Of a stretch of 64,000 bases of DNA, positions 5,797-61,095 are shown in pieces. The notes under the pieces were generated by a model, which had not been told where the DNA came from, searched no databases, and saw nothing but the letters and a program-made list of their open reading frames with translations. The translations under genes were made by a program, and so were the position numbers. Position 1 is the first letter of the stretch; each line of letters starts with the position of its first letter. The stretch covers positions 744,001 to 808,000 of the forward strand of contig OZ017752.1 of NCBI GenBank assembly GCA_963969365.1, written 5' to 3'. The DNA comes from Asterochloris sp. CNOR1 (Eukaryota; Chlorophyta; Trebouxiophyceae; Trebouxiales; Trebouxiaceae).

Positions 5797-8700
5797 TCAC
5801 TGCCAGGGTTGCTGTCTTGCAGAGGTGTCACTGCACCAGGACCCTGCCTGGCTGCTGAAGGAGAGCTGCTGCATTGCAGCCCCGTAATCGCCTGATTGTA
5901 AGGCAGCTTCCAGTGCAGCATCGTCGGGGATGCTGACTGAAGCCAAGGACAGCAGGTCTAAGTCTTCAGTGTTGTGCCGAGCTGCTAGGACTGGAATGCA
6001 CAGACTCCGCGATGCCTGTGGCTGCGCTGGCAATCGGGCAACATCAGCGCTCTGTGGCTGCCCTGCGCCCTGCTGTGGATGCTGGCCAGCCGTGCCCTCA
6101 GACTGATGGCAAGCAGCACCCTGCTTATTCTGCCGCTGCCCTGCTGGCTGCGCCTGCTGCAGGGAGCCAGCAGCATCAGGCCCTCTATTTGGCCCTGCTG
6201 GCTGTGTCTGTTGCGGGGAGCCAGCAGCAGCAGGGCCCTTGCTTGGCCCTGCTGCTGCTTGCTGCGCCTCAGCTTGCTGTGCCTGCCCTCCATCATCTGC
6301 CCTGGGAATGCTGGACTCCCCAAAAGACAGAGTCCTGCTGGTGGGGCCAGGAGCAGACACAATACGCCGCACTTGCCGCTGCATTTCTGCCTGCTGCAGC
6401 TCAGCAGCTGCCTCAGCCTCCTCCTGAAGAGAGGGGTCTGCAGCCTGCTGCTGATGCCCATCCTCAGCAGATGCACTCAGGAGAGACCTTTGCCGGCGCC
6501 CAACTGTAGGGAAAGCAGCGTTCATTCAGACCTCACGCGCCTGAGAATGCATCAGCAGCAGGCCTCTGGCACCCAACTTGACCTTCTGCAAGACCTGAGG
6601 CCAGCACACAACCAGAGGTCGCCAAGAGCAATATGCTTCTGGAACATGAGGCCACGCAAGCTAACCTGCCACCGCAGGGGTGCTGCAGGAGTGGTCCACA
6701 AGAGCAACTCACATCAGGCCAGGCTGGCTGCTCAGGCTGACCAGTTGCCACAATGTGGTTTCTGCAGACATCTACAGCAGCAACTGGCATTAGGACAAGC
6801 TGGCTCTCGCAACCTGACCTGCCACCACGGGGCTGCTGCACTGGGTGTCCACCACGCCAACGATGGCTTGCATTGCCATGTCAGTAGCAGCCTCCTCTGC
6901 AGGGTTGCCAGGCTGTGCAGATGCCTTAGCCGCGCGTGCACCCCTCCGCAGGGGGCTGGGAGGGGGCAGCCCTGATATAAGGGGCGAGGGGTGGGGCTGC
7001 ACCTGAGCCTGCGTTGCTGCAGGTACAGGAGAGGCAGGGGCCTCCTGGGCAAGACCGTGCCTCTGCGGAGACTTGATCTGAGCGCTCCGGTGCATGCTGG
7101 TGGCATCAGTGCCTGCAGGCGCAGAGCAGGTCTGCTGTGAGGCTTGAGGTCTGGCAGCCGGGTCTGTTCTCCGCTGCGGCAGCTGCTGTGACTGCGTGCA
7201 GCAACTGCATGTCCTGTGACTGCGTGCAGCAACTGCATGTCCTGGTTTCTCCGGGGAGCTGTCTGAGCAGGCAGTATTGTACGCTGGCGAGCCTCCCAGG
7301 ACATGCCTGGCAGTCCCCAGCATGACAGACCCCTGTGTCATGCTGAGCATGCTGCGCTGCGCAGCCACATGTCCTCTGGCAATGTAGCTGCAGCCCAACT
7401 TGAGGTAGGTTTTGTTCAGGGTCCCATGCTCACCCTGCGTCCTGCGGGGGCTGGCGGAGGGGCTGTGCTGGGACTGCTCCTTGGCCGGCGACATGACGGG
7501 CGCTGAGTTGGCCCGGCTGGGGCGCATGAGCGCTGCCCTTTTGTCCTTCTTGCGCTGCTCCTCTTCCGCACGGTCCTTGACAGTCTGCAGCACAGCATGG
7601 CTCATCCATGTCAAGCAGCCAGCAGTGGTGCTTTGTTGTTTGAACCAGCAGAACAGTGAGCCGTGAGGTTGAAGCGAAATGCTTGTGCAGATGGCCAACC
7701 TTGTAGATCAGCCAAGGCATCAGGCCTTGTCCTTGACAGCTTGCACCACACGATGACTCAGGGACATGACTGTCATGCAGAATAGATGGGCTGTTGGGAG
7801 CCCTCAACAATCCCCATCAGCAAAGCATCAGCCTGGTCCTTGATGTGTTACTGCGCAGCATGATCTGTGGGTTCAGCGTCAGATGTCCCCTGGACTGGCT
7901 GTGGTATGGCTGATGGCAGCTGTTTGCCTACTGTCTGAGGTCACTGCCTGAAGCTTCAAAGCAAACTGGAGGGCTACAGAGCTGGATGCAATAGGCAGCA
8001 GTGCATGGCCCTGCTGTGCAGTCAGGTTCCTCAGGCCTGGACATGGCATGGTAGATTGGGGGTGGCACAAGCCCCACCTGAATTTTGAGCATGGCGGCAT
8101 CAAAGAGCAGCATGAAGTCACGGACCACACGCAGTACCCTGCCAGGGTCTACTGGGTTGTAGCTCTCTCCAAAGTACTTGGTCAGAGCCTCCACATCGCC
8201 CACTGTGCCGACCTCATACTTCTGCATGCGGGCAGCCACCATCTTAGTTCCCCGACACATTGCAAAGCAGTCAATCACGGCCTCCACGTTCCCCACCGTG
8301 CCAGCCTCACACCTTTGCATACAGCCACAGCTGCTGTATGAGTGTCCCTACAGCTCTGAAAGGCTTGGTCAAGAGCCCCTGCATCGCCACACAACCCATG
8401 CTCCTGCATGGAGGGCACATGCCACCCTGTGCCCCACAGCAGGTTGAACAAGACAGGCGGGGACCATCTGTCTCCTGCTGGCTACAGTGACAGACCACCA
8501 GGATGGATTGCCACGATATTGGATGCCTGCTGTGCTGACGGCAGGGCGCTGCAGGGTCTCCAGCTTTGCTGCACAGCCAGTACAGCAACCTTGCCAGGCT
8601 TGCACTGATGCAAAACAGATGTCTAGCCCTGCGGGGTGGCCTCCATTGATGCAGATTCAGTGCAGCATCAGCCATGCGCCAACCAGCAGCAAGCTGCCTG

Positions 8701-11700
8701 GCCCTGCAGGGTTGCCAACATTGCTGCCACAGTCTGTCCGGCAGACATGCCAAGCAAGCCATCACATGAACTTGTGCATGGAGAGCGCCAAGCTGACCTC
8801 TAGGCTGAGGAATGTCTGCTTGGCAGTCTGGTGGAAGGCCACCATCAGCTCCCCAAACTGCTTGTGGGCAGAGGCGCTGTCCTCCCCGCAGCCAGCCGCC
8901 TCCAGGATCTCTGTGTTGACTCGGGCGAGGCCCCCACGCAGGTCCCCAATGAGTGCCTTCAGACTGGAGAACTGCAGGCGCAGGTGGGGCAGGACGGTGC
9001 TGTGTGCTGGGACCGCATGCAGGCGACACACCTTCACAGGAGGCAGTGCTAACCAACAGCTGCAGGTGCAGGTATGACAACAGCGTGGCGCGGCGTACTG
9101 CCCAACTGCAGGGAAGACATCGTCAGCCAGAACGCTTGAAGGCCACCGTGAATTACAGGCAGGCTGACATCGTGCATAGCAGCCTAGATTCAAAGTCTCA
9201 ATTGCAGCCACATCTGACCAACAATGACTCTGCTGCTCTGCTCTGACGGGCCTCAGCAACATGAGCATGTGGTCCCGACTCAGAGCGTGCAGCAGGCGAG
9301 GCCTGCTGACCCCACCTGAATGTTGGAGGCGGGCTTGACTGTGCTGAGCTGGTGGTGCAGCGACTTCATGGAGGGGATCTCCTTCAGCAGCTGCTCCAGC
9401 ACAAAGTGCAGCAGGCTGGTCTTGCGGTCCGTGCCCTTCACGTCAGCCAGCTTCAGCAGCGTGTCCAGCTTGAACCCTGTAGCAAGCAGGGGTTGAAGCT
9501 GGATGCAGCGCACCTCAAGGTCAGTGACGGCATCAGAGGCGGTCAGGGTGCTCCCTCGCCACGCATGCTACGTTGCACCAACTAGAAGCAGGCGATGCCA
9601 GCAGGAGCACTACATGAGGGGGGCACAGCAGCAGCAGAACTAGGCCATACAAGCAGGAGCATCAACTGATGTGGGGCACAGCAGCAGCAGGCAAATATCA
9701 GCAACCACAAGCAGTATTCCAGAGAGAGCCCCATGGCACACACGCTTAGCTGAAATGGCGCAGCACAAAGTCAGCAGAGCAGAGCAACCATCGCACCTGT
9801 TGCGTTGCCCTTGTGCGTCCCCTGGTTCAGGTGGTTCCCCAGGGCCAGCACAGCCTTCAGCAGCGTCATGAAGTCGTCACACCCCTGCAGCTCGCTGCAC
9901 GCGTCCCGCAGCGTGTCCAGCTGGCCCTGCACCTGCGGCAGATGGGAGGCACTGACTGTGAGCTGACAGATTGTGAGCAGGTGACACATAGAGTGTTAGC
10001 AAAGCTCTGGAATTGATGGGCACTGCCTGTACTGTCGTGGCAGCAAACCCTTCTGACATGCAAATCTGCTGTGAGGTCCTTACTGCGTGCCCAAGGGTGC
10101 ACTATGGGCATTGCAGCAGCCAGCCCTGGGGCACTCTGGCTGCCTTTACATTCTATGTGCACAGGCCTCTTGCACAGGCAAATGCGGTGCTAAGATCTCA
10201 ACCCTAGCCACATGGCACAGGCACGCGAAGATTCAGCGCACCTCCACACAGCTACAGTGCAGTTGCCTGCCAATGCATTTTGCACCAGCCAGCAGGTGCC
10301 TGTTGCAGGCCAGCAGGTGGCTGCTCACCCTGGCAACGTTCGGGGCAAATTGGCGTGTAAAGATGAAGCAGTCTATGCGCTGCTGCAGGCGGGGAATGTC
10401 CATGATCTCCAGGAAATAGCGCTCCACCGTGCCCAGAAGGGCAGGGTCGCTCATGTCGCGGTGCTTGGTGTGCTGCCCCTGCAAAAGGGCAGACTGCCTA
10501 TGCTTAGACCAGTAGTATACAGTGCCAGTCCATGCTGCAACATCGATAGGGGAACCACAGCAGGGGAAGAGCAGGACCAGGTGCCGAGAGCAGCAGCTGT
10601 GCACCATGCATGGACATCTGGCTGCCTGGAGGTGCCGCCCCTGCAGGCATAGTCGTGGCCAGGCGGTCCAGAGGTGGTCAGGTAGTGCACCTGGCTTGCT
10701 GGCGCAGATGCCTTGCAGTGTGGCCTGGGTGCAGGCAGACCGCGTATGGGGAAACAGACGCCAATGCTGTTGGTAGGGCAAATGCTCAACATGTGTAGCA
10801 CACAGCATTTCGACCAGCATGACAAAACGCTGGAGGGTAGGTCCTGCTGGCTCCTGCACAGGCCGACAGCATTTGGACCAGCATGACAGAATGCTGCAGG
10901 GCTGGTCCTGCTGGCTCCTGCAATGGCTGCCAGGGGCGGCATGCCCACCACTGGAAGCAGGATCAGCCTGTGCTGCAGCAGCCTGAGCGGCAAGCTCACG
11001 CCGCCTTCTGGAGCCGCAGCATGGGCAGAGCTGCAGGCTGGTGCCACCTTCGGGCACAGCAACAGGGGGCACAGCTGCGGCAAAATCGCTACCTTCAGGT
11101 ACAGTCTGATGTCTTTGCGCTCTGTGTCGTCGGGCACAGCCCTTGACAGAGCATCCAGCTGGTCCACAGTCAGCGCGCTGTCATCCATGTTCTGCAGGGC
11201 CTCCTGCAGGACACATGGTAGTGTGCCAATGTGCATCTCAATGTCAGGTCATCCAACCGTCACTGTGCGCCTGAGAACTGCGACAATCGTCTCCCATGTT
11301 GTGCGGGGACAACATCAGTGGACAGGAAAGAGTGAGCAGCTGTGGGTTCAACACTTCAGACAGTGACAGCTCCCCTGACTGGGGCAGCACGACACTTCAG
11401 ACAGCATCACCCATCAGCTGTGCACAGAGGTGTGGCATGCATGCAGGCTGTCTCTGATGCTGCTGAGAGCACAAGCAGGTCTCACTGTCAACACAGAGGG
11501 CGGCTGCAAAGGGATGCCGCAGACCCACACCCTGATCCTCCCTGATCCTCAGCCCCTTCCTGATTGCAAGTGAGGCAAGACTGTGTCCGTCACCCACCTT
11601 GATCTGTGCAAACGGCATGCGGATGCCAGAGAGCTCAATGCAGATGTTGTGCGCCCGACGGTGCTCCACCAGCAGAATCTCATTGCTCCTGTTCTTGGCC

Positions 11701-14700
11701 AGCCGCCGCAGCGCCGTGTTCTCTAGGATCTGCAGATGGGCACAGAGCAGAAGCACTCTCAGCACAGGCTACTGCCAGCCGCCATAGAGCTGTGTCCAGA
11801 ATTGATGTGGCTAGGCAACAACTACCAGCTGTGCGTAAGCAAAGCACGTCCAGCAACCTCTGTGGGAGCTCAGTCCTAGCCACGCAGAAGCAGGAGGTGC
11901 ATGTGGGCTGCACAAACAGCTGCTGACAAGCCACATGCTGCAGCAATGGTTGCTGCAGATGAAAGAGCGATGTCATGTGCAAAATGCATCAGCTGCTGAC
12001 GTGCATGGCACTGCAGCAGCACCCTGCACAACAGCTATAGGTCTGAAGTTGGCCGTCGTTGTGGCCTTTGCTGACCTGAAACAGAGACTCGAGCTCTGCA
12101 AAATTGAGGTTGGGGTGTTGCCCCTTGGCCTTGCTCCAGATGGTGCCCTCCTGCGACCCCCGAATCTTGTCCCAGTGCAGTTGCTTCAGCTTGCGCCGCT
12201 GGCTGGCACTGGCACGCACCTGTGCCAGCATGCAAGATGCAGGCTGAGGAGAGCTTCTCTGACTATCAGCAGGTGGGGCACTTGCTACACAGACAGCCTG
12301 CCATAGTGCCTCCACAGCAAAGCAGTAGGCAGGCAGCACAGCAGCACAATGAGCACAGCGCACAAAATGTGGTCGGGGCGAGTACAGGCAGCACAATGTC
12401 CCCACCGTGGTGGTGCCTGCAGGCGAGTCCTCATCATGCTTCTCCGGCTGCGGCGTCTTTTGCTTGGGCGTGGGTGGCTTGCCCTTCCCAGGCGGCGGCG
12501 GTGGTGGGGGAGGGGTGGGCATGCCCTTCTTGCCCGACATGGGAGGCAGCGGTGGTGGAGGGGGCTTCTTGGCTGCAGTGAATCAGTTGCATTGATTTCT
12601 TGAGAGCGCATGGTGTTGGGCAGCATGCAGGAGCAGGCTGGCAGCAAGGCTTGAAAGCAGCATGACTCTGAAGCTGCCCAGATGTGAATGTTTTCATGAG
12701 CAGCGCAGCACTTGGTCGCTACACCCGTGCAGGACTGTCACCTGTGCTAGGGGGTGGAGGCCGGGCCCTGGGAGGTGCCTTCTTGGCTGCAAGCACAAAT
12801 GTTAGGCTTAGTCAACATGTTCATTATTTCATGCCAAGCAGCAAAGTACTCACGCAAGGTGCACGCTGCAACCTGTGGCCAGGAACAGTACATTTAGCCA
12901 TTGCAGAGGGTTGAAGGTTGTTCAGCTTCACCTGTGCTAGGTGGTGGTGGCGGCGGAGGGGGCGCAGGCGTCTTGGCAGCCGCCTTGGAGGCAGTGGCCA
13001 GCTTGGGCGGCAGCGGGGGGGGTGGTGGGGCTGGTGTCTTGGCTGCACCGCAAACATGCAGCAAGCTTCCTGTGAGGCCTTGAGCAACAGGGCCCGGCTC
13101 TGGACATGATTGCAGGCATCTCTTTCACATGCACTGTTTGCGACATGAGACTGTCAGGAGTAATCCAGCCACGGTAAAGCAGTTGTGTCACTGCCCTGGC
13201 AGCATGCAAATAGGGCACTCACGTGTGCCAGTGCTCAGAGGGGTAGGAGGCAGCAATGGTGCCTGAGGAGCAGCACCCTGCAGGCATTGCTCTGGCGTGC
13301 CAGCCCTTTGTGCTGCCCCTGCAGCTGAACTATCCTGCGAAGGCGTTGCAGCCGCAGCCACAGGGCCACGGGGCGGCTTCCCTGCACATGTCAGAGTGAG
13401 GTTCTCAAATGGCTCCACCACAGCTTCAGCTGCTCCTCGCAAAGCAGATGCAAGGACAGCAGGGACGTGCAATGGCTACTAGCATGTGCAGAAGGCTGGA
13501 TGGCTGAAGCCCTACAAAACACTGCAGACAGGGCCGCTTTCTGCAAACAACCATATTTGCCTGCTGCAGAAGCACCACTCCCTTCAGTGGCCAGGCTGGC
13601 TGCAGAGGTGCCTTGCATCTGTGGGTCTGGCCTGGCAGGCAGCCTCTTAGCATCCTCCTGAGGAGAGCTTGGGGAGCTGCCTGCTGACTGCCCAGCACGC
13701 CGCTGCTCGGCCTCGTCCTTTGCCTGCACATGTGAAGGGCACCGATGCTGGTCATCATGCCTGGGACCACCTTTGACAGCAATGCTTTGCATGCCTCAAG
13801 CAGCAAGCTTCAGGCATGAAACAGCCTTGGACGGTCTGCTGTGCTGCACTTCCAGCACACACATCGCAGCAGGCAGCACTGGGCACACCCCACACACTGG
13901 GCTGCTCTGCCTCATGCTTGTTCTGCAACATGAAACAGAAGGCACAAGGTGACATCTGAGACAAAGCCATAGGGCCAGAAGGAGGTGGCGGGCAGCCTGC
14001 TCCCTTCGTGCCCCATGGTTCCATCATTCCTCAAGGTTCAGGCAAGAGCTGTTCAATCATCCTGTGCTGGGTCTGCCAACCTTCCTGCCCTGCTCCATCA
14101 GGCTACACTTTCAGCAAGCGGCACTGAGACACAAAACAAGCCACCTGCCTCTCCTGTGGCATGAGAAGCTCTGAACAATTTTCCGAACCTCTGCGCAGCT
14201 TGCTGGGCAGGTTGTCATTGGTACGCAGCCCTTCATGCCTGCTAGCACTACCTGAACTTGTGCCAGCACTACATGCACTCGTGCCAAGTCCTGAAGCTCA
14301 GCCTCCAGGCACACCTTGCTTGTCAGATAAGCCGCCAGCTGCAGGGTGGAGTCTGCCTTCAGCACCATCCTGCGGCGCGCGCGCCTGGCACGGGCATCCT
14401 GCCCAGCCTGTCCCTCTGCATCGCCCCCGCGGGGGGACTGCAGGTCCTCTGCCAGAGTGATGAGGTCATTCAGTGCAATGCCCGCAGGCATGTACAGCAG
14501 CGGCTCATCGCTGCTGGTGCTTGCGCCGTCCCCGCTGGTGCGCCTGCAGCAGAGACGAGAGGGATACAGCACAGAGCCTGTGCTGGGGCATGGAGGGTGT
14601 GCAGCGCAAAAAGCCCCACTTGCAGCCTAGCTGGGCTCCTTTGCTGCACTGCCAGCTGTGATTTGCAATCAGGTGTCACAGGCTATGTGCTACCCAATGG

Positions 14701-17700
14701 CATTAGATCCAAAATGCCACAAAACAGCCCACCAATGTTTACCTTGAGGCCTGCTCGCTGGCAGCAGCCAGCCGCATCCCTGCAGGGCCAGAGCCCAAGG
14801 CGGTGTTCAGCAGGTGCTGCGGCAGCCGCACACTGGGCAGGCCCCCACTGCCAACCTGAACCTGCTGGCCCTCCTTTGGTGCCTCAACGGACCCCTCAGC
14901 GCTGACTTCTGCTTCAGGCCCTGGCAGTGCAGCTGTGCCAGCCGCCTGTTCTGGCGCAGCAGCTGCTGCATTGGAGCCTGCAGCCTGCAGCGTGCCGTCT
15001 GCAGCAGGTGGCAGGCTGCCTGGGCCTGCGCCTGTGCCATGCGGCTCACGTGGCGTAGATGCCCCTTCAGATTGTCCAGGGGACCCGCTGCTGTCAGCAT
15101 CATGCCAGACCTGCTGGCTGCTGTCCTCCGCCTGCAAGTCTGGCTTGCCAGGGCCTGAGCCAGCGCTGCTGCCAGGGCTCGTTGAGCCTGCCTTGCCCCC
15201 AGCAGCTGCAGCCTGTGGCAGCCCTGTGCGCTGTGGCTTGCCGGCAGCAGCTGCCAGCTCAGCTCCTGCCCTGACAGCTGCTGCCTGGCCATGGCTGTGC
15301 CCAGCAAGCACGCCGCTGCCTGCCAGCAAGCCTGCCTCGTCCAGGTCGTCAGCAGAGCCGAATCTCTCCAGCAGGCTGACAGGCGTCACAGCCACCTGGG
15401 CTGAGGGACCACCAGCCACAGAAGTGCTGACAGAGGTGGCGGCCTGACTAGCCCCCGGCACTCCTGTGCTGGCGCCGCCGCTTGCGGCTGCCTGCTGGTG
15501 CCCTGCTCTGCCAGTGTGGTTCTGGCCTGCATCGCCAGCTGCTGCAGCTGCGCTGCTAGGGTTGCCCTCAAGGCGAGCTGCTGCGCTGCGGCGCAGGCCG
15601 CCCTTGGTGGCCAGGTCTGCGGGGGTATTGCAGGCATTGCGCAGCTTGGCCGCATAGCCACGGACCTTGCGCATGGTGAAGGGCGCCTGCAGCAGCCAAC
15701 CAGACCGTGATCCATGCTGCTGTGGAGGAAGATGCCTGACACTGCCAGATGCATGCTCCCTGCCCTGGACATTGCAGCCTGAGCATCTTTATTGTTGCAG
15801 GTTGCACCGCCATGCGCCTCACGACCTTCTGATGGTGCCTCCTCCTCATGCAGAGTCAAGATACCAAAACCTGGAGAGGCTCAAGGTCTATGAGGCCCCC
15901 GTAAGTAAGGAGCAAAAAGAGTTGCAGCCTGTACCCACCTCAGCACCTCCCTTTGGACCTGAGCCAGACGCCTGTGGAGACCCTGTCGGACAAGAGCCCC
16001 AGGCTGAGTTCCCTGCTGCTCTCTCAGCCGCCTGGTGCTGCCGACCAGGAGCTTGGGTGCCCCCTGCTGGAGGGAGCACTGCACGAACAGCAGAACCGCC
16101 ACCTGGGCCGTCCCCCCGCACCCCTGCTCCCCTGCATTCACAGCCCTGCCCACCAGCAGAGCTTGCGACACTGTCACCACAAGCTCCAAGTGGGGCCTCA
16201 TCGTGACCAGACAGCTCTGTCTGGCCACTGGCAGAGAAGCCTTCTGAAGCTGCCTCTGCTGAGTCATATGCAAAAGTGCCTGCTGCTACTCCCTGTTGGC
16301 CCTGCTGCTGCACCACGCAGCCAGAGCGCTCGACGGCCTGTCGCACTCCTGCTGACTGCATCACCAGCTGCTTCAGGGAGATGTCAGAGGTCACAGGCTG
16401 GCTCCCAGTGGCCAGCTGGCTTGCAGGCGCAGCCTCCACAGCATCCACACCGATGTGGCCAGCGCCAACATCCGCTTGCACGGCGCCACCCGCCTGCTGC
16501 AAAGCTGCAGCGCCCTGCCGTGGCTGGCTGCCGGCAGACCCATGTGCCTGGGTGCCAACTGCAGCGCGCTCGCGGCGAGCATGGTGCGCAGCAATCTGCG
16601 CTGCACTTCTGGCAGCCAAGCAGTCCAACAGGTCCACGCTGCTGCTCAGCTGGCTGAAGTCAGCAACCAAATCCAGCAGGCTGCTGCCCTGCCGGGCATC
16701 CCAGCCTTGCGCCTGAGCAGTTAGCCCCTGCAGAGCCGCTGGGTCCAACTCACGCTGCGCTTCTAGCCCTGAGGCGTTGCCCGGCGCAGCAGGAAGTAGC
16801 AACGCAGCTGGGGGGCCTGCTGCCCCGGTGGCTGCCCCTGTGGCTGCCTCTGCCGGGCTGGAATGCAGCAAGCACTGCAGCTGGGCCAGGTCCAGCTTGC
16901 CAGGCTCCAAGCCAGGCTGCAGCTTTGCTAGCACCTCAGACAGCGCAGCAAAGCGCTTGGCATCCTCATCTGACAGCTGCGGGTGCTGTGCAGGCTGCTG
17001 CGCACTTGCGAATATGTCAGCGGCATCGCCTGCCTGTGGGTCTTTGTCAGACAATGGCGCTCCGAGCTGCACACTGGCTCCAGCGCCCTCAATGATGTTG
17101 ATAGTGAGCTTGACAGGTGGCTCGGCAGCAGCCCCTGGAGCTGCTGGTTCACACAAATCTGCAGGCGTGGTATGCTGCGCCCGAGCCTGGGCCAGGCCAG
17201 CATCAGCTCTGCCAGCAGCCCGTTGAGCCTCATCACCAGGAACAGCTGGTGCTGCTGATGTTCCAGGCTGTGCTGCTGGGTAAGACAGCACAGTGAAGCC
17301 GGCATGCTGCCCCCGAGCCTGCGCCCAACCTGGGCCGGCTTCAGTGCCGCCAGCAGCCCCTGCAGGCACTGCCTGTCCTGTCCAGTGGGCCAGAGGGGTC
17401 TCTGCTAGATTCAGCAAGCCCTGCTTTGGGCTGCTGCTAGATGGTTGCCCTGGGGCCCCGGTGCCAGCTCTGTCTGAGTCAGTGACAGGTGCCCCATCCT
17501 GATGCCCTGATTCTGTGGCTACATCAGCCTGGGTACTTGGCTGCTGCGCGGGCGCCTTGTGCTGGTGCTTGGCAGCAGGCAGCAGCGAGCGCAGCCCGAC
17601 AGCTGCTCCAGGGGCATGCAGCCTCGCTGTTGATGCCTGCTGGCTGCCTGTGCCAGCGCCCATCTCAGCCTTGGGCCCAGCAGAGAGACCCTGCCTAGGA

Positions 17701-20700
17701 GAGGCACCCAGCCTGGCTGCGTCGAAGGCACTGCCAGTGGAGTTGGCAGCAGAGGGCTCCTGGCTGCTGCCGAGTGGCTCCCCGGCGCTGCCTGTGGACC
17801 CCGAGCCTGTGAGACCCTGCCCAGGGGCGCCCTTCCTGTGCCTGCCCATGCGTCCCAGGACCCAGGTGTGGGCTGTGACCTCACTGTCGCTCAGCATCTG
17901 CGGGGCTCTGCGGCGCGGCGTCAGCTGGGGCGCCTGCAGGGGGCCCAGCAGACATGCAGCTTTGGCAGAAGCATGCTCATGCTGAGAGATGGCCTTCAAC
18001 TGTGCAGATGCTGCAGGAGGAGAGGTCACTAAATCGGAAGCATGCCGAACTGCAGTGGCTGGGCGCCTGCTCCTGCTCTCAGAGTGACGTGACGGGGCAG
18101 GCTGGCTGCTGCTTTGGCTTTGGCCTACACGAGAACTGCTGGTGAGCAGAGATTGGTCTAAGGAGCCTGTTGCACCTCACGCACCTCAGGCTGAGCCGGC
18201 AACGTATCTTGGGCCTCAGGCGCCACATCTACCTCCATTGTGGCAGCTGTGCTGTCTGAGTCGACGAGCTTGCGCAGGGCCTTTGCTGCAGCCTGCTGTC
18301 CCAAGGGCCTCTCACTGGCCTGCTGTCGGTGTCTCGGAGTGGATACAGCTGCAATCTGCCAGGCTGGGGAACCTGGCTCGCTGGCCAATCGCTCCAGAGC
18401 TGAGACAGCCCCTGTGCTGGGATTCAGCATGCACTCCCGCTGCTTGCACTTGGCACTGCCTGCTGCAGCCACCCAGCCTGTGCTCCCCCACGCCAGCTTG
18501 CCCTGCAGCAGAGCAGCTGCCGAGTCTGGCTGGGCAGCATGCCCGACCACATCCAAGGCCATGCTGCCAGGCTCAGGCTCAGCAAAGGCGCCTGCCTGGG
18601 GGTGACTGCTGGCATTCCCCTCTGACTCAGGGATGTGCAGCCCAGCCGCTGGCGCTGCAGCCAAGCGAGCCAGACTCCCAGCGTCTGCTAGGTCGTTGTC
18701 ACTGAGGTCAGAGTCAGGATCTTCCCTGGCACCATCTCGCTGCAGCTGGCTGCTTGCACCCCCCAGGGCCTGGCCCTCCTGCGTCTGCATGCTGTCACTA
18801 GGCTGCCTGCCTGGCGTGGAGGCAGGGCTGTTGCCAGCTTCGCCAGTGCTGCGCCAGGCCTCCTGCGGCCCCCCTGCTGTGCGGGGGCTCCACCCCCTGG
18901 ATCCGGGGCGCTGTCCTGCAGCTGCGGTGCTGCCCTGGCTGTTGCCCCGGCTGACGGCGTCGCTGCCGTCCATAGAGCACCTGCAGCAGGTGGCCGCCCG
19001 GCTGAGCAGGACCACTCTCTTCTGACCGCAGCCTCACACTCATGCGAATGCACGCATGCCATCAGTGCATCTCAGTGATGTAGAAAACTGATGTTGTGCA
19101 GAGGCACACCTGAATTTTGACATCAAGGGGCTCTCGGACTTCTGCCTGATCCACTCTCCGGTCTTAGACTGGGTCATGTCCCCTGCAGGGACCACAAAGC
19201 GAACCTGACTTATGGAATCTGCAGCAGGTGAAGATCACAAGCAGCCACGGCAGGCAGGGGCTGATGTCAGGTGTCCACCTGTCGCGAGTCCAGCCATGCG
19301 TATAGAGCCCAGCTCATGCTGCCGCAGGGGCACAAAAACGCCAGCAGGCGTTCTCCTGCCAGGCGGCAGCTCAGACACGGCCCGCCGCGACAGGCGCCTG
19401 TCCCCCAGGCCATCAGGGAGCGCGCTGTGCATGCTGGTGGCACTGTCCAGCATCTGCAGCTGTGCAGCAGACGGTGCCAGCCGCGCAGCAGCCTCCAGGC
19501 CTGAGCCACCCTGCTGCCCTGCAGTCCCCAGCAGTGGGCCACCCTGCCGCCCAGGACCATCCAAGCCCCAGCCAGCCTGCCAGCCTGCACCCTCCATGGT
19601 CGAGCCAGCCGTGGCAGAAGTTGAGGAGGCGGCACCCAGACCGGCGCCGCTGACAGCCCATGCCGCCTGGCGGCTGCCAGCCTGGTTGGTCAGCAGGTCT
19701 GGGCTGCCCTCCGTCAACTGCTGCCTGGGCCTGGCAGCCTGCCGCTGGCGCTTCTCTGCAGGTTCCAGCGTGTAATACTGGATGGCTGCCGCAGTGCCGC
19801 CACCCAGGGCTGCCAGACCCTGCTCCCCGGCCTGGTCTGGCAGCCGCCTCCTCGCAGACAGCTGCAGTCAAGCCAGGAGACATGATTCTTGCACATGAAC
19901 CGCGCCCCAGAGCCTCTGCCACCTTGATACACGCAGAATGCACTGGAGGCACGCCTGCCTTAAGCAGGGTGCCTCCAATGCATTGACAGAGGACTAAGCG
20001 AGCTTGCTCTTCATGCATGCCTTGCCCGGCACGTCAACTTGGGGGCTGACCTGGCCATCGCTGCCTGCGCTGGCCAGTGGGCCTTGCAGAATGGGGGATG
20101 GCGAGCGCTTGAACTGAACAGTGGGCACCCAGTCCACCTTGATCTTCTCCAGGCCCGGCTGGCGCTCCCGTGCCGGCGCGACACCTGCAGGCCACACCAG
20201 ACGATGGCTTCTGGCAACCTGGCGCCTACTGCCACAGCTCCTCCTGGCCGCTCACACAGAGCGCTTGCGCCAGTTCCATCATGCTGTTGCAGGCATGGAC
20301 GGCTCACCAGGAGGGCACCAGTCAGGCCTCCTGGTGCTGGTGACCTCCACCCCTCCATTGGCTGTTGCCACCCTGTAGCAGCACCAGATCGCGTGATTGC
20401 CATGGCATGTTTTGCTGCAAGTCACATGTGCACTGGCTCCAGCACCAGAAGACAAAGCCAGCGGCCAGCAGCACGCGAGCTCTGAGCTCACCGAGCTGCT
20501 CAGAGGCCAGAGGCTGCACACCTGGAGATGACCTTGCCCAACGGGTCAGTTGGCGTGGCAACAGCCAGGGCATGTTGCAGCCTCTGATCCTTCTGCTGGT
20601 GGCTCTTGAGCCAGGGCACCAGCTGCTGCTGCATGTCCCGCGCGCTGACAGCCCCCTGTAGCTGCCTGGCAGTCAGCGCATCTGCATCACTGGCAGAGCG

Positions 20701-22893
20701 TTTCTTGCCGGCCATGCCTGCTGCGGGCCTGTTGCTGGCTGGGCCTGAATCCTGGGGGGCAGAGTCGGGCAGCACCAGGGGCGGCATCTTGCGCTTGACA
20801 GCTTTATTGGCTGCCTGGGCTCCCACCTGTGCCCCGCCTCCAGCCTTGACAGAAGGCCTGTCGGACGCTGAAGAGGGCAGGCTGTTGCCGGCGGGGTGCT
20901 GATTCTCATCCCCTGCAGGAGTGACTTGCTTTTTCATGCAGTGTATGTGTCCTGGATTTTCAACAAAACCGTAGGGTGTGCGACCCAGATTGTTTGCTGA
21001 ACATGAGGCCTCACCTGGCCGGCTGAAGTGGCTGAGGCTGCCCACCAGGCTGATCATGCGCTGAGGCCCCAGGTCGGCCTGCACAGATTCCTTTGGCACC
21101 ACAGGCTGAGCCACCTGACGATGCTTGGGGGCCTGCAACACCCAAGCAATGGCTGCATGTATCACCCAGGCCTCTGTGCCAGGATAGACAGTCATGCTGA
21201 CATCAGACATGCCGTCATGCAGCTCAGGTGCGCCTGTGCTGGAGTGTGACAGGAATATATATGCCCATCACTCTGACCTGCTGCACGCCAATCATTCTAA
21301 CCTGCTGCATCGTTCTGACCTGCTGCATGGCAGTCTCAAGTGGGACTAGCGGCTGCTCCATATCTCTGGCAGGGGGCCTGGTAGGCTCCCCTGCTCCAGT
21401 GCGGTGTGTCAGGTCTCCAGGCATGAGCCTCTTGCCAAGAAACAAGTACTCAAAATGCCTGATCATCGCTGCAGCACCATCTATCTGCATAGGACAAGAG
21501 TCACATTGCTATGGTGCTGCTGGTCCAACGCCTCAGCTGAGAGTCAGTCCAAGTGCATGATGCAAACAGCTGGGCAGCAATTGGTGACTACATATGCTTC
21601 TGCTGGAGCCCTTCTGCCTTTGCAATAGCAGCAGGCAAACAGCTGTACAAACCCCGGTGCCGCTGTGCGCCATTCATGCCTGTTGCTTGCACTGCACTCA
21701 CAGCACTAGCCACCCAGCTGTGGATGTCCTCCGAGCTTTGGGCCCTGTCGCTGTGCTGGGGCCGAAACAACAGGGGACCCATGGCAGCGCCCAGGCTGGA
21801 GGCTGTCAGCCCACTCATCTGATTGTACTTGCGCAGGCGGTGCAGCAGGCCCAGCAGGTCCTGAAGAACCTCTGCAGGCAGGACACAGGATACTGTGTGC
21901 GTGCAGTTGGCCGCAGACAGGGCACAGGATGCTGTGTGAGTCCAGATGGCCGCAGGCAGGACACGGCATACTTTGTGAGTGTAGACGGCGGCAGGCAGCG
22001 CACAGGATGCCCTGTGAGCGCAGGCAGGGCACAGGACGCTGTGGGAGTGCAGGCAAAGGACAAGGTCCGGAGACTATGGCAGAGCTGCAGCATGTTAGCC
22101 TTGCTGTCTGAGTCCTGACATAAATGTCCATCAGTACAGCTGACGAGGCCACACAGCAGCATGTGTCATTCTGCATGGCTGCCTGCATCTATGACAGTTG
22201 GTCTGCTGCTGCCCCTTCCACTTTTTAATGAGCTTAACAACGGCCGCTGCCTCCTGTAACGCCAGCCTGGGCAGCCTGCATGTTTCACTCACTTTGGTTC
22301 TGCTCTGGCAGCTGCTCCAGGCGGCACTTGACCACGTACTGCTTGACATCATCAGATGAAAGGCTGTGCAGGCTGATCAGCAACTCGCTGGCCAGCTTGC
22401 TGGTGATCAGGGGCTCACTCAGCTGCTCCAGGCAGGCCACCACGGTTGCAGCCACTGCAAAGTCGCTGATGCGGCTGCCTGCCGAGAACCCTGCAAAAGA
22501 GGCAGAGTGACTTGGGCATAGCATGCCACTTCGAGGCAGCGTCAGGCGGGGGTGGACTACCTGTGAAGTCCTGGCGTGACAGGCATTCCTGCAGGGCTGT
22601 CACTTCAGCCTTGCTGACGTGGCCAGCATCCAGGAACAGCGCCTTGGAGTACCCATGTCCCACTGCAGGGGCAACGTGAGATGCATCAGAACACAAAGCT
22701 GGCTTGGGGCCACCCTGCTAGCAGCAGGGCCGGGAGACTTTAAGGTACCCTTCTTGTGCAGGTGCCCTGTAGCATGCCAAAGGATTTGCATGAGCTGGGC
22801 ATCGCGCTGTGCTGACAGCGCTTTGGCGCCACGTCGCTGCAGCTTGGCCTGCAGCTCGATGGCTGCAGCGTCGCTGACCAGCTGCTGCGGCAT
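5797..22893 (-). CDS. RhoGAP-FH1-FH2 formin, giant gene
   Basis: Formins nucleate and elongate actin filaments: FH1 feeds profilin-actin and the FH2 dimer rides the barbed end. About 30 minus-strand exons were followed. RhoGAP-like exons are 22893-22749, 22662-22561, 22490-22293, 21871-21702 and about 21488, and all phases match. The linker runs through exons near 21134, 20916, 20187, 19866, 19187, 18983, 18009 (about 2 kb), 15688 and 14546. FH1 exons follow at 13.4-12.4 kb, FH2 exons at 12.2-8.0 kb, then a Gln/Pro/Ser-rich tail near 7590, 7148 and 6525. Phases were checked through the 22.9-18.0 kb section and nowhere demand a new start. Joins near 15.9 kb and 7.1-6.5 kb are less certain. I recall that class III formins of mosses and lycophytes carry a RhoGAP-like domain, so the architecture has a precedent. 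Two separate genes remain possible. Confidence 0.72.
7190..7246 (-). repeat. 28-base tandem duplication in the formin tail region
   Basis: The unit TGTGACTGCGTGCAGCAACTGCATGTCC occurs twice back to back, nearly identical. It lies beside the exon that starts near 7148 and is probably intronic. Confidence 0.7.
8187..8324 (-). repeat. 45-base duplication at the last FH2 exon
   Basis: A segment encoding [15 protein letters not shown] (8187-8231) is echoed 93 bases upstream in the minus-strand sense as [15 protein letters not shown] (about 8280-8324). The second copy lies just outside the expected exon start and seems to be an intronic relic or an alternative exon. Confidence 0.6.
10802..10925 (-). 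repeat. Two-copy tandem repeat in an FH2 intron
   Basis: Two copies of about 63 bases share ACCAGCATGACA and TCCTGCTGGCTCCTGCA. They lie in the intron between the FH2 exons at 11.2 and 10.4 kb. Confidence 0.65.
12390..13395 (-). other. FH1 proline-rich region with cassette-like exons
   Basis: Minus-strand exons near 13395, 13045, 12790 and 12573 encode polyproline runs such as [42 protein letters not shown] and [18 protein letters not shown]. These are profilin-binding tracts placed just before FH2, as in all formins. Three of the exons start after a phase-1 junction with the same CCAAG, giving A/P-K. The exons near 13045 and 12790 are phase 1 at both ends, so they look duplicated from one unit and could be skipped without breaking the frame. 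On the plus strand the region appears as misleading Gly-rich open frames. Confidence 0.85.
13205..21134 (-). other. Long low-complexity linker of the formin
   Basis: Roughly 1,900 residues rich in Ala, Gly, Ser, Gln and Pro connect the RhoGAP-like part to FH1. One exon (about 18009-15940) contributes near 690 residues. Short, more ordered islands interrupt it: [20 protein letters not shown] (20.1 kb), [17 protein letters not shown] (19.8 kb), [20 protein letters not shown] (19.15 kb), [20 protein letters not shown] (17.9 kb), [20 protein letters not shown] (15.65 kb) and [19 protein letters not shown] (14.45 kb), the last followed by a basic helical stretch. They may be peptide-binding sites. 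No known domain was recognised in them. Confidence 0.6.
21702..22893 (-). other. RhoGAP-like domain of the formin, exons 1-4
   Basis: From ATG 22893 the four exons give about 200 residues. Later RhoGAP blocks are clear: [15 protein letters not shown] matches the LLKxFLRELPEPLI helix, [20 protein letters not shown] matches LPxxNxxLLxxLLxHL, and [20 protein letters not shown] matches NKMTxxNLAxVFGPxLLRP. The block that should hold the catalytic arginine finger (G-I-F-R-x-S-G) reads [11 protein letters not shown], with Leu where Arg is expected. GTPase activation therefore seems unlikely, while binding a Rho/Rop-type GTPase stays possible. An N-terminal helical stretch ([18 protein letters not shown]) precedes it. 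Confidence 0.8.
21880..22060 (-). repeat. Imperfect 40-base tandem repeat in a formin intron
   Basis: Four to five diverged copies of a unit like GGCAGGGCACAGGATGCTGT lie in the intron between the third and fourth RhoGAP-like exons. It looks like an intronic minisatellite. Confidence 0.7.
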
Positions 22894-23323
22894 GCTGTGT
22901 GCACCTCAGCCACAGGGGAGATTGCTGCTCTCAGATTGCATGCTGCGTGCATCAGCAGTGCCAAGCCGTGGGGCTGAACATCGATGGCCAGATGTGCTGC
23001 CCAGAGTCAAAGCACATGTTTACAGCATGACCACCGCTGCCTAAATGCAGCTGCTCGGACCAGCTTGCCCAGCAGCGGAAATCAATGCATGCACTGGATC
23101 AGCTTCAACCAACATCATGTTGAGGGGCAAGACTAGATTTAGAGTTCCAGTAGAGGGTAGGCCTTGTTGCGGTGCTTCCGTGTTGCAGCATAGCACATGT
23201 CTGTGCTGTGTTAGTCTCTTCACTGGATTGCTCACCTCGGTCAGACAGCAGCTCTGTCCGTGCACAAAGTCAGCTGACTGCATGACTGCGTGAGGGCAGG
23301 ACGAGGTCCAAGGATTTAGACTA
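22894..23323. promoter_or_regulatory. Left copy of the formin/S1P divergent promoter spacer
   Basis: About 430 bases lie between the intact formin ATG (leftwards) and the relic of the S1P start (rightwards). The same spacer, in the same orientation, recurs at 28694-29143 upstream of the intact S1P gene; both copies share a GGGGCAAGACTAGATTTAGA block (23123 and 28909). Conservation between copies is the only evidence for regulatory content; no named element was identified. Confidence 0.5.
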
Positions 23324-23900
23324 TGGTAACCCTGTAAAGAGCAGCAGCCCTACTTGCTCTTAGACATCTGGCAGCAGCAGATGGGGCTGCTGATGTCGGC
23401 GCAGCAGAGCCAGCCTGGCTGGGGAGGACCCGGCAGCAATAATGCCGCTTTAATCCATAGGTGAAACACAATCTTGGAGCTTGGCCTGCACCTGCACCGC
23501 TCTGCACTGCAATCTGCTTCTCCTCGCCTGACCTGATGCTTCGCTTGCAGGCGATGGAGCAGCAGCATGGCATGCCACACCTGTCTGCGGCCAGACTAGT
23601 TGGCACAGAGCTTGATCTTGATGCATCATTCGTGCCAAGGACATGGCTGACCATCACAGGAAAGGCTACAGCAGCAGCCCAGGCGCTGGAGCAGCCACAA
23701 TGTGGTGCTGAAATGCCAGAAGGATTTCACCCACCAGGATGCCAAAGATCTTGCGCTGCTGAAGCTGATGCAGCCAAGGCAGATGCTAGCAAGAAGGGTG
23801 CCTCTGGCTCCTTCAGCACCACTGCAGTGGCAGCTGCCCTTTGAAGCCCATCAAGGCTCCTCACTCTCAATGTATCTGCTGCCGATTGCACCCAACCCTC
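23324..23900 (+). pseudogene. Broken 5' fragment of the S1P protease gene
   Basis: The sequence from the start codon through the second exon of the intact S1P gene (29144-29720) is repeated here in the same orientation. The start is still visible (ATGGTAACC) but the frame closes after four codons. Exon-2-like DNA follows (GCAGCAGCATGGCATGCCAC is shared), with an altered remnant reading QKDFTHQDAKDLALLKL against the intact [14 protein letters not shown]. Similarity stops near 23900, where sequence matching the inverse of the glycosyltransferase 3' end begins. It is a decayed partial duplicate, not an alternative S1P exon. Confidence 0.75.
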
Positions 23901-24718: not shown

Positions 24719-27221
24719 TTATTTGATCTCAACAGTGTGCGCAGGCTCTTCCTCCTCCTTCTTGCCAGTCTTGGGCACAACAATCCTCAACTGACCATTC
24801 TCCAGCTTGGCGTCCACCTGGTTGGGGTCCACATTGTCGGGCAGCTGCGGGGCAGGCATGGGGAGGGGGTCAGATTGGGAACATCATGGGGCAGCAAAGC
24901 ATCTGCTCCCTGCCTGCTGACTAAGCAGGCTACAGAGTGCAGAGCACTGGAGGATTTTTAATTTGCTCCAAGGTCTTCTGTTTGTGCCACTCTTGTGCCA
25001 CTCGAATGCGGGACCACGGCGGACATGGCGCAGCAGAGCCCGAGTCCCCAGGCATTGCCAAGAGGAAGGGTGGCTCTCTTCCAGCACAGCAGCAGTGGGA
25101 TCAGCAATGCGTAGTACAATCTGCAGTTTGCATTGCTACCGCCAGCCAGGAAGACCGCTGCAGTCAGGTGTTGCCTGGTGCAGCTACATGCCAGGTGACT
25201 TACTGCAGATGGGCCGTGAAACCAGAGCAGCTTTGTGACATGCACACCTGCTGCCCACTCTGCCTACATGTAGACAGCTGCCCGCTGCAAGTGGGACTGC
25301 ACCCACAGCAGTGCCCATTGCATACGCAGCACCCACCTGGAGGGGGTGCATATGGAGGACGCTGGCCCAGTCTGATGGGGCCTGGTGTGTGGTGCAAGCA
25401 CACAGTGCCTTGTGCAGGCAGACCTTCTACCTGAGAATTGTGAGCTGAGAGCATCTCTGCCTTGGTGCCAAGGCCACTGTGAGGGTGCCAGTACATGCAG
25501 GCAGTGCAATGCACAGTCGCGTTCCGCGTTCTTTGGGCAGACAGATGAACCTCAGACGAGCTGCCTCCGCAGAACAAGCTGCCCACCTGGAAGCGGCACC
25601 TGAACGATGGTGCAGCACACCCTTGCATGCAACTGCAGGCAGCAGCCAATCAGCTGCGGCATCTAAACTCAGGTGACTACGCCGCTCATTGCAGCCACAC
25701 ACCTGGAAGCGGCGCACGAATACTCCATAGCTGCGCTCGATGCGGCGCACACCCTCATCGTTCTCCTCATGCTCCTGCTTGCGCTCCCCCTCGATGGTCA
25801 GCGTGTGGTCTTTGTTGATGGTGACCTGCAGGCAGGTGGAGCCTGCCGTCAGTGTACACGTGCAGCCATTGCTGCTGCCCTCGATGGGGCAGCATGTCAT
25901 CAATGAAGCCTGCTGCAGGAACCCCCACCACCAGCAACCAGCAGACTGCAGGCACCCTGTGGGCACTCAGTGGGGGGCGTTGGCCCACAGCCATGGTACT
26001 CTGGCACACAGCAGGCTGCAGCAGTAGAAGCAGAATGCATCAAAGGATGCTGCAGTGTCTGCAACCACTCCATGCAAGGGCATCACTGCACTGCCCACTT
26101 CTCAGGACTGTCACTAGCACAGTCAGGCATTCAACAGACTGCTGCACCAACACCCCAGCACACACGTGGAGATTGCAGGGGGGGACTGCAGCACAGCCGG
26201 GGGGGCTGACCTCCGCCCATTGCCTGGCATCATGTGAGATTCCTGGGCAGGCATGCAGTCACCTCCTGGCCCACCTTGATGTCCCCCTTGCCCAGCCCAG
26301 GGGCATCGGCTGTGACGTAGATGGCCTTGTCATCCTCGCGGATGTCCACAGGGATGGTGGGCACCCGCGCAGCAGGGGCCAGGGCGGACCGGTCCCCCGG
26401 GGCGCCAAACAGGCTCAGCATGGACTCCATCTCGTCCTCCTGCAGTGGGGTCCAGCAGTCTTGAAACCTTGACCAATTTCCTCTGCTGCATGTGGAACTG
26501 TCTGCTGAGGCGTGCCAGTCTCCAAGGCAGCCATTGCCCTGAGGGAGCACCTTGTCACGCTGATCAGGGACATAACAGCCATTCCGCTGAGCAGGCTCAG
26601 CATGGGCTGCTTTCATCCAGCAGGTGCAGAGGTTTGCAGTCGCAGCAGACTCACAATGTCACGCAGGAAGCTGCCCAGGCGGCCAAAGGATGGAAAGGGT
26701 GCCAGGTCACCCATAACCACGGGGCCCACCAAAGCTGAGCCACGGGAAGGCCGCCTTGCCACTGTGGTTCCACCCCTGCAGCAATATGCAGAGTTAATGA
26801 GGGTAGGCTGGCCGCTCAAGCAGGAAGTGTTTCACAGTGCCAGCCAGTTTGAGTAGGTGGAGCATGGGCTGCGACGCCTGGTGATCCACAGCCATACAGA
26901 CATGACAGCAGCGATCAAGAAAGTTTGCTCAGGACCAGGCAACCCTGGGAGGACTCCGCCTCTGGGGAAGAGAGGTGGCACACAAGGACTGCTGCCTCTC
27001 AGACGGCCAGCCTACCTCTTGCCTGTGGTGACTGGTGCATCTGAAGCTCCAGGCTGCTGTTGCTGCTCCCCACTCCGGACATTCTGGCTCTGCTGAGCCT
27101 GCTGCTGAGCGCTGATGGACACCATGGGGCGGGCGATCCTGCGAGTGGCATGGCTGGGCACCAGGAGGGCCCGGGACAGGTTAGGCTTGGCAAGGCTGGC
27201 CATCCTGGTAAGGCTTTGCAT
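24719..27221 (-). CDS. Small heat-shock protein (HSP20), left copy
   Basis: An ATP-independent holdase chaperone, probably organellar. Five exons (27221-27016, 26775-26655, 26439-26275, 25825-25703, 24844-24719) join in frame to about 246 residues. The N-terminus (SLTRMASLAKPNLSRALLVP) is basic and Ser-rich like a chloroplast or mitochondrial presequence. Next come PFPSFGRLGSFLRDI and MLSLFGAP, then the alpha-crystallin domain: VPTIPVDIREDDKAIYVTAD, APGLGKGDIKVTINKD, LTIEGERKQEHEEN, RRIERSYGVFVRRFQLPDNV and ENGQLRIVVPK. A VEIK tail may act as the I-x-I/V oligomer anchor. Exon lengths equal those of the right copy base for base. Heat-shock-element-like palindromes lie 110-175 bases upstream. 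It occupies the left arm of the inverted duplication. Confidence 0.92.
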
Positions 27222-28107: not shown

Positions 28108-28693
28108 ATCAGCTGCTGTACCTGGCAGATGCTGGAGCAAAATTTCCCAGCTGCCCAACAGCCTCCAGACCTGAGCTAGCCTGCCTTCCAGGCCTGAGCC
28201 TCCTTGCCAGGCCTGAGCCTGCTTGCTGCCCTGCAGTCCCCTGCACTGGGCCAGCCTGCCGCCCTGCACAATCCAGGAACCAGCCAGCCTGCGACGTTGC
28301 AAACGGTGCAGCATGGTCAGTGTGCTCGGGCATGGCATGGCGGCTCATGGCAGCCTCAGGCGGCAATGGGCTACCTGTGAAATCCTGCCGGGACAGGCAA
28401 TCCTGCAGGGCTGCCAAGTCAGCCTTGCCAACGTGGCCAGCATCCAGCGCTTTGAGTATGCATGTCTCAATGTGACACAGTATGAGATGCAACAATTAGA
28501 GCTTTGCTAAAGGCGCCCTTCTGAGCAGCAGGGCCGGGCGCCTTAAAATCTCCCCTTCTTGTGCAGGCGCCCTGTGGCTTGACCAAAAGATGGCATGAGC
28601 TGGGCATTGCGCTGTGCTGACAGCGCTTAAGCGCCACATTGCTGCAGCCTGGCCTGCAGCTCTATGGCTGCGGCCTCGCTGACCAGCTGCTGC
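28108..28693 (-). pseudogene. Decayed fragments of the formin gene 5' part
   Basis: Two pieces of the formin gene are fused here. Bases about 28108-28320 resemble the linker exon near 19440-19620, including a CCTGCAGTCCCC...GGGCCA...CCTGCCGCCC block. Bases about 28325-28693 match exons 1-2 and the flanks at 22505-22893 (AGHVGKADLAALQDCLSRQD against [20 protein letters not shown]). The ATG and QLVS are preserved, but a TAA falls inside the first exon copy. The roughly 2.9 kb between the two source regions is missing. The fragment keeps the position of the formin 5' end next to the S1P promoter. Confidence 0.72.
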
Positions 28694-29720
28694 ATAAATG
28701 CACCTCACCACAAGGGAGAGAGCTGCTCCCAGGTTGCACGCTGGGGCAGCCCCAGCATCGATGGCCACATCAGTCGTCCAGAGTCCAGAGTCAAGTCTCA
28801 TGTTCACAGCATGACCATGTCTGCCTTGATGCAGCTGCATGGACCAGATGTCTGAGCAGCAGTACGCGGTGTTCAGCGCTGCTTACACCATTGGTACACG
28901 TTGTGAGGGGCAAGACTAGATTTAGAGTCATCAGAGGGAGTACTGTTGGTCGATCTGCGTAAGTGCAGTGGATCCTGGTTGAACCTATGCACAAGATGGC
29001 ATGTCCGTGGTGTCCCAGCCTCTCACATGAATGTCTTACCTGGAACCCAGTGGCACTCAGTCAGACATCGGCTTTGTCTATTTATATAGTCAGCTGGCTG
29101 CGTGACCGCGTCTGAGGCACACTGAGGTCCAAGGAATCAAACGATGGCAGGTCTGCTGAGAGCAGCAGTCCTGCTTGCTCTTGGATTGCTGACGGCAGCA
29201 GCGGGAGCTGCCAATACCTGCAACGCAAACTCTGCGTGGCTTGGGGGGGATACGCAGCAACGATGCCCATGGAAATCACAGGTGGAACACAATTTTGCAG
29301 CTGGCTGCACTGCTCTGCACCGCTAATGACTCCCTCATGGCTGACGCTGGCCTTCATTTGCAGGCAAGGAAGCAGCAGCATGGCATGCCACAGCCAGGCC
29401 ATGGGCATACCAGGTGGCAGCCAGTGGAACTTCGCTACATTGTGCGTTTCAAAGAGTATAAGATGGCTGACCAGCACAGGAGCCAGCTCCAGCAGCACCT
29501 CAGGGGCTGGAGCAGCCAAGACTGGCGCTGGGTTGCCCGAAGGAATGCAGCCACCAAGTTTCCGACAGACTTTGCGCTGCTGGAGCTAGATACACCAAAC
29601 CTGGATGCCGTCAAGGTCAGCCCTGGCCTCCCAGCACCACTGTAGTGACAAACGCCCTCAGCAGTCCTTCAAGGTTCCTACTCTCAATGCATTTGCAGCA
29701 GATTGCACCCAAGTGCAGCC
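28325..29720 (+). repeat. Direct repeat, right copy (formin 5' end, promoter, S1P 5' end)
   Basis: Partner of 22505-23900. Here the formin part is broken and the S1P part is intact. Confidence 0.75.
28694..29143. promoter_or_regulatory. Right copy of the formin/S1P spacer, S1P upstream region
   Basis: This is the duplicate of 22894-23323 and lies between the dead formin 5' fragment and the intact S1P ATG. It shares the TAGATTTAGAGT block and a GTCAGCTG-CTGC-TGAC segment just before the S1P start. It should contain the working S1P promoter; no defined motif was identified. Confidence 0.5.
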
Positions 29721-57435: not shown

Positions 57436-57441
57436 AGAGTG

Positions 57442-57446
57442 TGTAA
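57442..57446 (+). terminator. TGTAA poly(A) signal of the CBP60-like gene
   Basis: TGTAA begins seven bases after the TGA stop at 57433-57435. The position is closer than usual, so another downstream signal may serve instead. Confidence 0.35.
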
Positions 57447-57730
57447 CAATGCACAGATGCTGGCTTCAGACTGCTGGCTTGGCTTTGTATTTTGTCCATA
57501 CTGCTTGTCTGCCCAGATACACATGACATACTGCAGTCTGCCCAAGATAGAGTGTCCCCCATGCTTCCTCCCTTTTTGCTGCTGCCGAGTGGATGTGACA
57601 CTGCTAGGTCACCCTGAGGGGTTTTCAGTCAATGCTGTTGACCAGCCCTTAGGCGGTGTCGTGAAGCAGACCTGCAGCAGCATGCGGTCAGACACAGGAT
57701 CAGAGCAGACAATGTGCTGATCAACACAGC

Positions 57731-60700: not shown

Positions 60701-61095
60701 TGGCCGTCAAGTGTGCACAGAGGCTGCAGGCAAGCACTGGCATACCCGGCCGGAATTTGGCTGGATGCCATTGCTCAGCCAGGTGGCCGCAGAGGTGCCC
60801 ACTGCATATGAGCATCACCTGCAAGTGTGTGCTTCAAGTCAGCACTTGCCAGCAGAAGCGATAAGCACTGCAGTACCCAGTGCGACAATTGTCCATGGGC
60901 TGCTTAGTGACATGTGTATGCCAGGCCAGAGACTCTGCAAAGCACTTGACAGTGCCAATAGAGTAGCACTGTGCACCTTGCTGAGGTGCAGCCACTGCCG
61001 TGCAGGAGGGGCAGAAAGCAATATTTCACCTTGAAGCCTTCACAGCCAGGTTCATGTCTACCTACAAGGAGTGGATCATTGCATCATTTGGCTGA
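57731..61095 (+). CDS. RFC3: Replication factor C subunit 3 (clamp loader)
   Basis: RFC opens the PCNA ring and loads it on primed DNA in the nucleus. Ten exons match human RFC3 and yeast Rfc5. They begin MLWVDK (57731-57748) and [20 protein letters not shown] (57838-57903). Next is [20 protein letters not shown] (Walker A, 57980-58090), then [20 protein letters not shown] (58.45 kb) and [20 protein letters not shown] (58.9 kb). [20 protein letters not shown] carries the SRC motif (59.4 kb). [20 protein letters not shown] (59.85 kb) and [20 protein letters not shown] (60.5 kb) follow, and the last exon contains [18 protein letters not shown]. The Walker B position reads HETD instead of DEAD-like, as expected for this weakly hydrolysing subunit. 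The first intron has a GC donor. The stop lies 59 bases from the convergent ZNHIT2 stop. Confidence 0.95.

Follow-up and report, generated by a model that had tools for sequence, protein, structure and literature searches.

The closest described counterparts of the locus reported here are the class III formins of plants. In the portions of Grunt et al. 2008 (PMC2386819) drawn on here, class III formins with a RhoGAP domain are described from two species of Ostreococcus and, after a brief look, from Micromonas. Their RhoGAP domain has lost the arginine, with a downstream Lys changed to Leu, and the fusion of RhoGAP and formin is dated before prasinophytes and chlorophytes diverged from the vascular-plant line. 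Table 2 of that paper places no class III formin under Chlorophyta, and its text describes volvocal algae as being without class II and III formins, with Chlamydomonas having lost Rho and possibly the whole apparatus with it. Formins of the GBD/FH3 (diaphanous) type are said to be absent from plants (PMC2386819; PMC11194305), and the 2024 review (PMC11194305), in the part used here, cites one report of low expression and is otherwise aware of no functional work on class III formins.

We analyzed a window, that is, a stretch of 64,000 nucleotides (G000:C7:744001-808000), from a genome of 56.4 Mb in 21 contigs. The chlorophyll a/b-binding family (LHC) has 31 matches in the genome, which identifies a green plant, and within the window the Pfam matches to GUN4 (174.4 bits) and starch synthase (213 bits) likewise point to one. 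The formin locus of the window resembles the class III formins of Ostreococcus, Physcomitrella and Selaginella in having, at the N-terminus, a RhoGAP-like domain that is missing its arginine finger, with FH1-FH2 behind it. It differs from them in the roughly 1,880 residues that link the RhoGAP-like domain to FH1, and in a genome apparently without Rho. On its architecture and the missing finger, we consider it likely that the locus encodes one formin of the plant class III type, which would belong to an already known kind. The sequence-only reading had arrived at the same single-gene formin, and this remains the best reading; the dating of the fusion before the split of chlorophytes and streptophytes, which it also raised, is not new, having been published in 2008 from prasinophytes. 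What is new, as judged from sequence, is the combination of an inactive-looking RhoGAP front end and a predicted GBD/FH3 formin in a genome without detectable Rho. Among the literature matches listed (titles and starts of abstracts, few of them from subscription journals) there was no class III or GBD/FH3 formin of a core chlorophyte, so one may already be published.

Table 1. Features of the window (positions in the window) and other predicted formins of the genome (contig positions)
Feature	Location	Strand	Remarks
Class III-type formin gene (predicted)	5797..22893	-	33 exons, 2973 aa; ends uncertain
Exons 1-5, RhoGAP-like domain	21278..22893	-	Pfam 51.4 bits; PDB RhoGAP matches
Exons 6-19, long low-complexity linker	13223..21132	-	without Pfam domain
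Exons 20-22, FH1	12406..13042	-	five polyproline tracts of 4-8 residues each
Exons 23-30, FH2	8078..12219	-	Pfam 290.2 bits; PDB best DAAM1
Exons 31-33, C-terminal tail	5797..7584	-	last exon weak
Degraded duplicate of formin 5' end and upstream region (copy of ~22511-23895)	28325..29712	-	frame-breaking gaps
Formin, class II-like	G000:C8:88032-107790		weak PTEN_C2 upstream, 24.5 bits (cut-off 27.1)
Formin, class II-like	G000:C3:142308-158498		weak PTEN_C2 upstream, 22.0 bits (cut-off 27.1)
Predicted PH-GBD/FH3-FH1-FH2 formin	G000:C2:4102352-4118156		domain order and gene prediction

Gene model and domain order

Genes were predicted with a gene finder written for this work and trained on 264 kb of the same genome (the window and 20 further stretches). 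The intron signal that it learned was sharp, with a TGCAG acceptor (T 93%, G 94%, C 96%) and an AG/GTG donor. The start ATG at 22893 was picked in all runs except one at boundary bonus 0 and the one at 20; bonuses of 15 and 20 were rejected for over-fragmentation, the latter shattering everything. The formin model was then edited by hand at four places. Exon 1 was lengthened from 22833 to 22749, which regained the RhoGAP-like stretch in phase; the repeat block of the duplicated copy likewise stops near 22749, with similarity continuing into the intron. Exon 22 was split at 12406/12219, exon 30 was started at 8221 and the last exon (6503-5797) was taken from an earlier note.

The refined model has 32 introns and one open frame, with GT-AG at all 32 introns and TGCAG at 28 of the acceptors; within the linker lies an exon of 1995 bases (17933-15939). 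The matching splice phases claimed for 22.9-18.0 kb were recovered at all 13 junctions in that interval. By themselves such junctions say little, because the dynamic program builds in-phase chains only. The first donor is poor (AGG/gtacct) and the last exon, while in phase, has a coding score of -7.0, so the gene ends are uncertain, 5797 above all; left to itself, the gene finder placed the leftmost exon elsewhere, at 6125 or 6373. Intron 3 holds a tandem repeat of five copies of a 34-base unit, mostly 39 bases apart (21873-22052).

The spliced FH2 exons match PF02181 at an E-value of 3.2e-86 over profile positions 6-372 of 372. In the PDB, the best match of this FH2 was DAAM1 (E 1.4e-29), with mDia1 next, and none of the 19 matches was named as a plant formin. 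No other Pfam family was found in the window formin at E <= 0.1 in four pieces, or at E <= 1 in the FH2 piece. The window formin has FH1-FH2 in common with both class II formins and Diaphanous-related formins, the latter including its best FH2 matches, but a Pfam scan of the whole model gave no match to the PTEN_C2 domain belonging to the PTEN-like N-terminus of class II, and neither Drf_GBD nor GBD/FH3 as a whole was found in it by Pfam scanning.

The gene finder placed the RhoGAP region and FH2 in one minus-strand gene, and a forced split between them cost, in log units, 19.0 at a boundary bonus of 0, 16.0 at 5 and 11.0 at 10. At the two neighboring boundaries, which are real by homology, the costs were 4.2, 2.5 and 2.5 (Hsp20/formin) and 14.1, 11.1 and 2.8 (formin/GUN4), and the RhoGAP/FH2 join is clearly stronger than both at bonus 10 only. 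The gene finder falsely merges formin and Hsp20 at bonus 0, and formin and GUN4 at bonuses 0-10; since the latter two were fused across a real boundary, its joins are not proof. At bonus 15 the RhoGAP/FH2 split cost fell to 1.7, 22893-8762 nevertheless being kept as one gene. When the linker was swapped for random pieces of the genome, none of 30 matched the observed cost at either of two bonus values. After retraining without the window, 22893-8762 again came out as a single gene at each of three bonus values, and a split then cost 12.0, 7.0 and 4.8. This control is weak, since linkers swapped in from the training stretches equalled the observed cost in 6 of 40 cases at every bonus. In the run at bonus 10, everything below 8.3 kb, including the last FH2 exon, was split off as a gene of its own. 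No copy of the poly(A) signal TGTAA lies between 10152 and 23019 on the minus strand, where 1.9 were expected; the depletion is not significant and was rejected as evidence for one gene.

These results bear on a reading in which two genes lie side by side: the first, from 22.9 to about 21.3 kb, would encode a small RhoGAP-like protein, and the second a separate FH1-FH2 formin with the disordered region as its N-terminus. The tendency of the gene finder to join, the low costs and matching random linkers once the window was left out, and the length of a linker free of domains all speak for it. On the other side are split costs of 11-19 at bonuses 0-10, compared with 2.5-4.2 at the Hsp20 boundary, the 30 random linkers that all fell short, the in-phase exons that fill most of the interval and a domain order known from class III formins (PMC2386819, in the part drawn on here). 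We regard two genes as unlikely. A single predicted RhoGAP-FH1-FH2 gene is favored, though not proven, and the earlier claim that both domains share a gene gains support from the Pfam scores and the split costs.

Other formins of the genome

FH2 matches were found at at least four loci in the genome. The FH2 domains of the two class II-like formins are each other's nearest among the four (172 bits), while that of the window formin scored 95.5 bits with the formin on contig C2, 79.0 with C8 and 77.4 with C3.

The C2 formin carries a PH domain (48.6 bits), a Drf_GBD match of 40.1 or 43.5 bits in two scans (cut-off 30.1; only 25.9 when scanned exon by exon), a weak Drf_FH3 match (16.3 bits, cut-off 27) and, from hand-joined exons, FH2 (188.8 bits). 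This is the sole Drf_GBD match in a six-frame search of the genome; it covers profile positions 65-188, so the GTPase-binding start of the domain is not seen. The GBD/FH3 part gave 10 PDB matches, all to INF2 or mDia1, of which only the four to INF2 were significant (E 3.3e-8 to 4.5e-8; mDia1 0.35-0.76). The gene finder predicted one gene at bonuses 0-8, which overran the stop codon at position 4102352, but divided it into three at bonus 10; the cheapest internal splits cost about 9-11. Fungal contamination was considered as the origin of C2 and rejected, since this contig carries 2 of the 31 LHC matches and introns of the same TGCAG kind. If confirmed, the C2 GBD/FH3 formin would contradict the complete loss of that architecture in plants.

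The RhoGAP-like domain and the Rho system

Spliced together, exons 1-5 match the RhoGAP family PF00620 (cut-off 24.5 bits) at an E-value of 1.4e-13 over residues 65-187, and the domain retains 48.2 bits when scanned in a longer piece of the model; without splicing, the sole RhoGAP match in the window reaches 18.1 bits. A PDB search with the domain returned 29 sequences at E <= 1, OCRL and PI3K p85 among them, and the best was p190RhoGAP (E 2.6e-6). Residues 31-77 of the model contain no Arg, and KALFLDAG is, as placed by eye, the likely motif at the arginine-finger position of active RhoGAPs. The Pfam match (profile 27-147) begins past the finger region, the alignment of the finger being by eye, and the finger half of the domain, searched by itself against the PDB, gave no matches up to E 10. 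Placement by aligning the RhoGAP domains of the window formin and of a protein on contig C14 was dropped because they aligned poorly at the finger. In the column chosen by eye, the window formin lacks the arginine finger found in active RhoGAPs.

In the PDB alignment, a Val of the formin domain stands opposite a Lys of p190RhoGAP, which we take to be the second conserved catalytic-site residue. If the Lys is so identified, the window formin would have Val where Leu is reported for class III formins. The other RhoGAP-domain proteins predicted in the genome, on contigs C11 (54.2 bits) and C14, retain Lys at this position as judged by eye. The C14 protein (G000:C14:1446220-1448427, 62.8 bits) itself seems to have no Arg at the finger position, where Gln was read by eye.

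No Rho/ROP gene was found in the genome with one ROP query against unannotated sequence: its 10 candidates all had 27-38% identity, and three of them were also matched by RAN, at 32-45%. RAN as a control query gave 9 matches, including 6 exon matches at one locus at 66-91%. Searches of the genome for PRONE, RhoGDI and DHR-2 returned nothing and carry little weight, since control genomes were silent too. According to the part of a review used here, RHO was lost on the side of the core chlorophytes; this supports the absence of Rho here only on condition that the alga itself belongs to that group. If the loss is as old as that review has it, some prasinophyte class III formins may be without Rho too. 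In contrast to the volvocal algae, the alga of the window has kept its formin modules. The sequence-only reading had described the RhoGAP-like domain without considering the missing catalytic Arg or the undetected Rho.

OCRL and PI3K p85 carry RhoGAP-like domains that bind partners without GAP action. We propose that the domain of the window formin has probably likewise become a binding module, rather than an enzyme, for something besides Rho; a partner other than Rho is proposed because no Rho GTPase was found. By domain homology, the FH2 dimer would nucleate and elongate actin, with profilin-actin supplied by FH1, while the RhoGAP-like domain would most likely anchor the formin at a membrane or hold it inactive through its non-Rho partner. 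A GTPase of the Rab or Arf type is one candidate partner; a lipid and another region of the formin itself are others.

The lost arginine and the missing Rho could also mean that the domain is a functionless remnant in decay, and a partial copy upstream has already degraded. However, the domain keeps its Pfam score over five exons with the frame open, and in the copy the blocks corresponding to exon 1 (28553-28693, 87% alike) and to exon 2 with part of intron 2 (28325-28447, 82%) are better preserved than the longer flanking blocks (73-79%), although two flanking blocks of 33 bases are 88% alike. Decay therefore strikes us as quite improbable. It is somewhat less improbable, yet still not what we expect, that a Rho GTPase escaped the search, through divergence or a gap, and is bound by the domain as Grunt et al. 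proposed: a single query was used, scores are for first-look candidates only and the assembly may be incomplete. The exon-by-exon recovery of RAN, the uniformly low identity of the ROP candidates, three of them shared with RAN, and the loss reported in the review's core chlorophytes all argue against a missed Rho. A binding module for a partner besides Rho is the reading that we prefer.

With due reserve, one may go further and ask whether a Rho-less green alga has kept both an inactive class III RhoGAP and the PH-GBD/FH3 (DID) of the C2 formin by re-wiring the two to other inputs; this we put forward as a tentative and rather doubtful possibility. If true, autoinhibition or membrane targeting of formins would be separated from Rho. 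An alga apparently without Rho also lets the standard idea be tested, in which the RhoGAP-like domain replaces GBD/FH3 and so preserves the link between Rho and actin.

Upstream duplication and neighboring genes

The duplicate is part of a segmental duplication (22511-23895 and 28325-29712) whose copies lie about 5.8 kb apart. It seemingly also includes the 5' end of a divergent site-1-protease-like gene (MBTP1_N, from 29463 onwards), and the stretch at 23.5-23.9 kb resembles a relic of the start of such a gene. Two Hsp20-type genes, closely similar by eye, lie in opposite orientation at about 24719-27125 (minus strand) and about 38853-39975 (plus strand). The first, the one of the two that was scanned, matches Pfam HSP20 at 38 bits; the second was merged with the protease gene by the gene finder. 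A predicted plus-strand gene at 49950-61095, which has no Pfam match in its N-terminal 390 aa, seems to join CBP60-like and RFC-like parts as judged by eye and is probably two fused genes.
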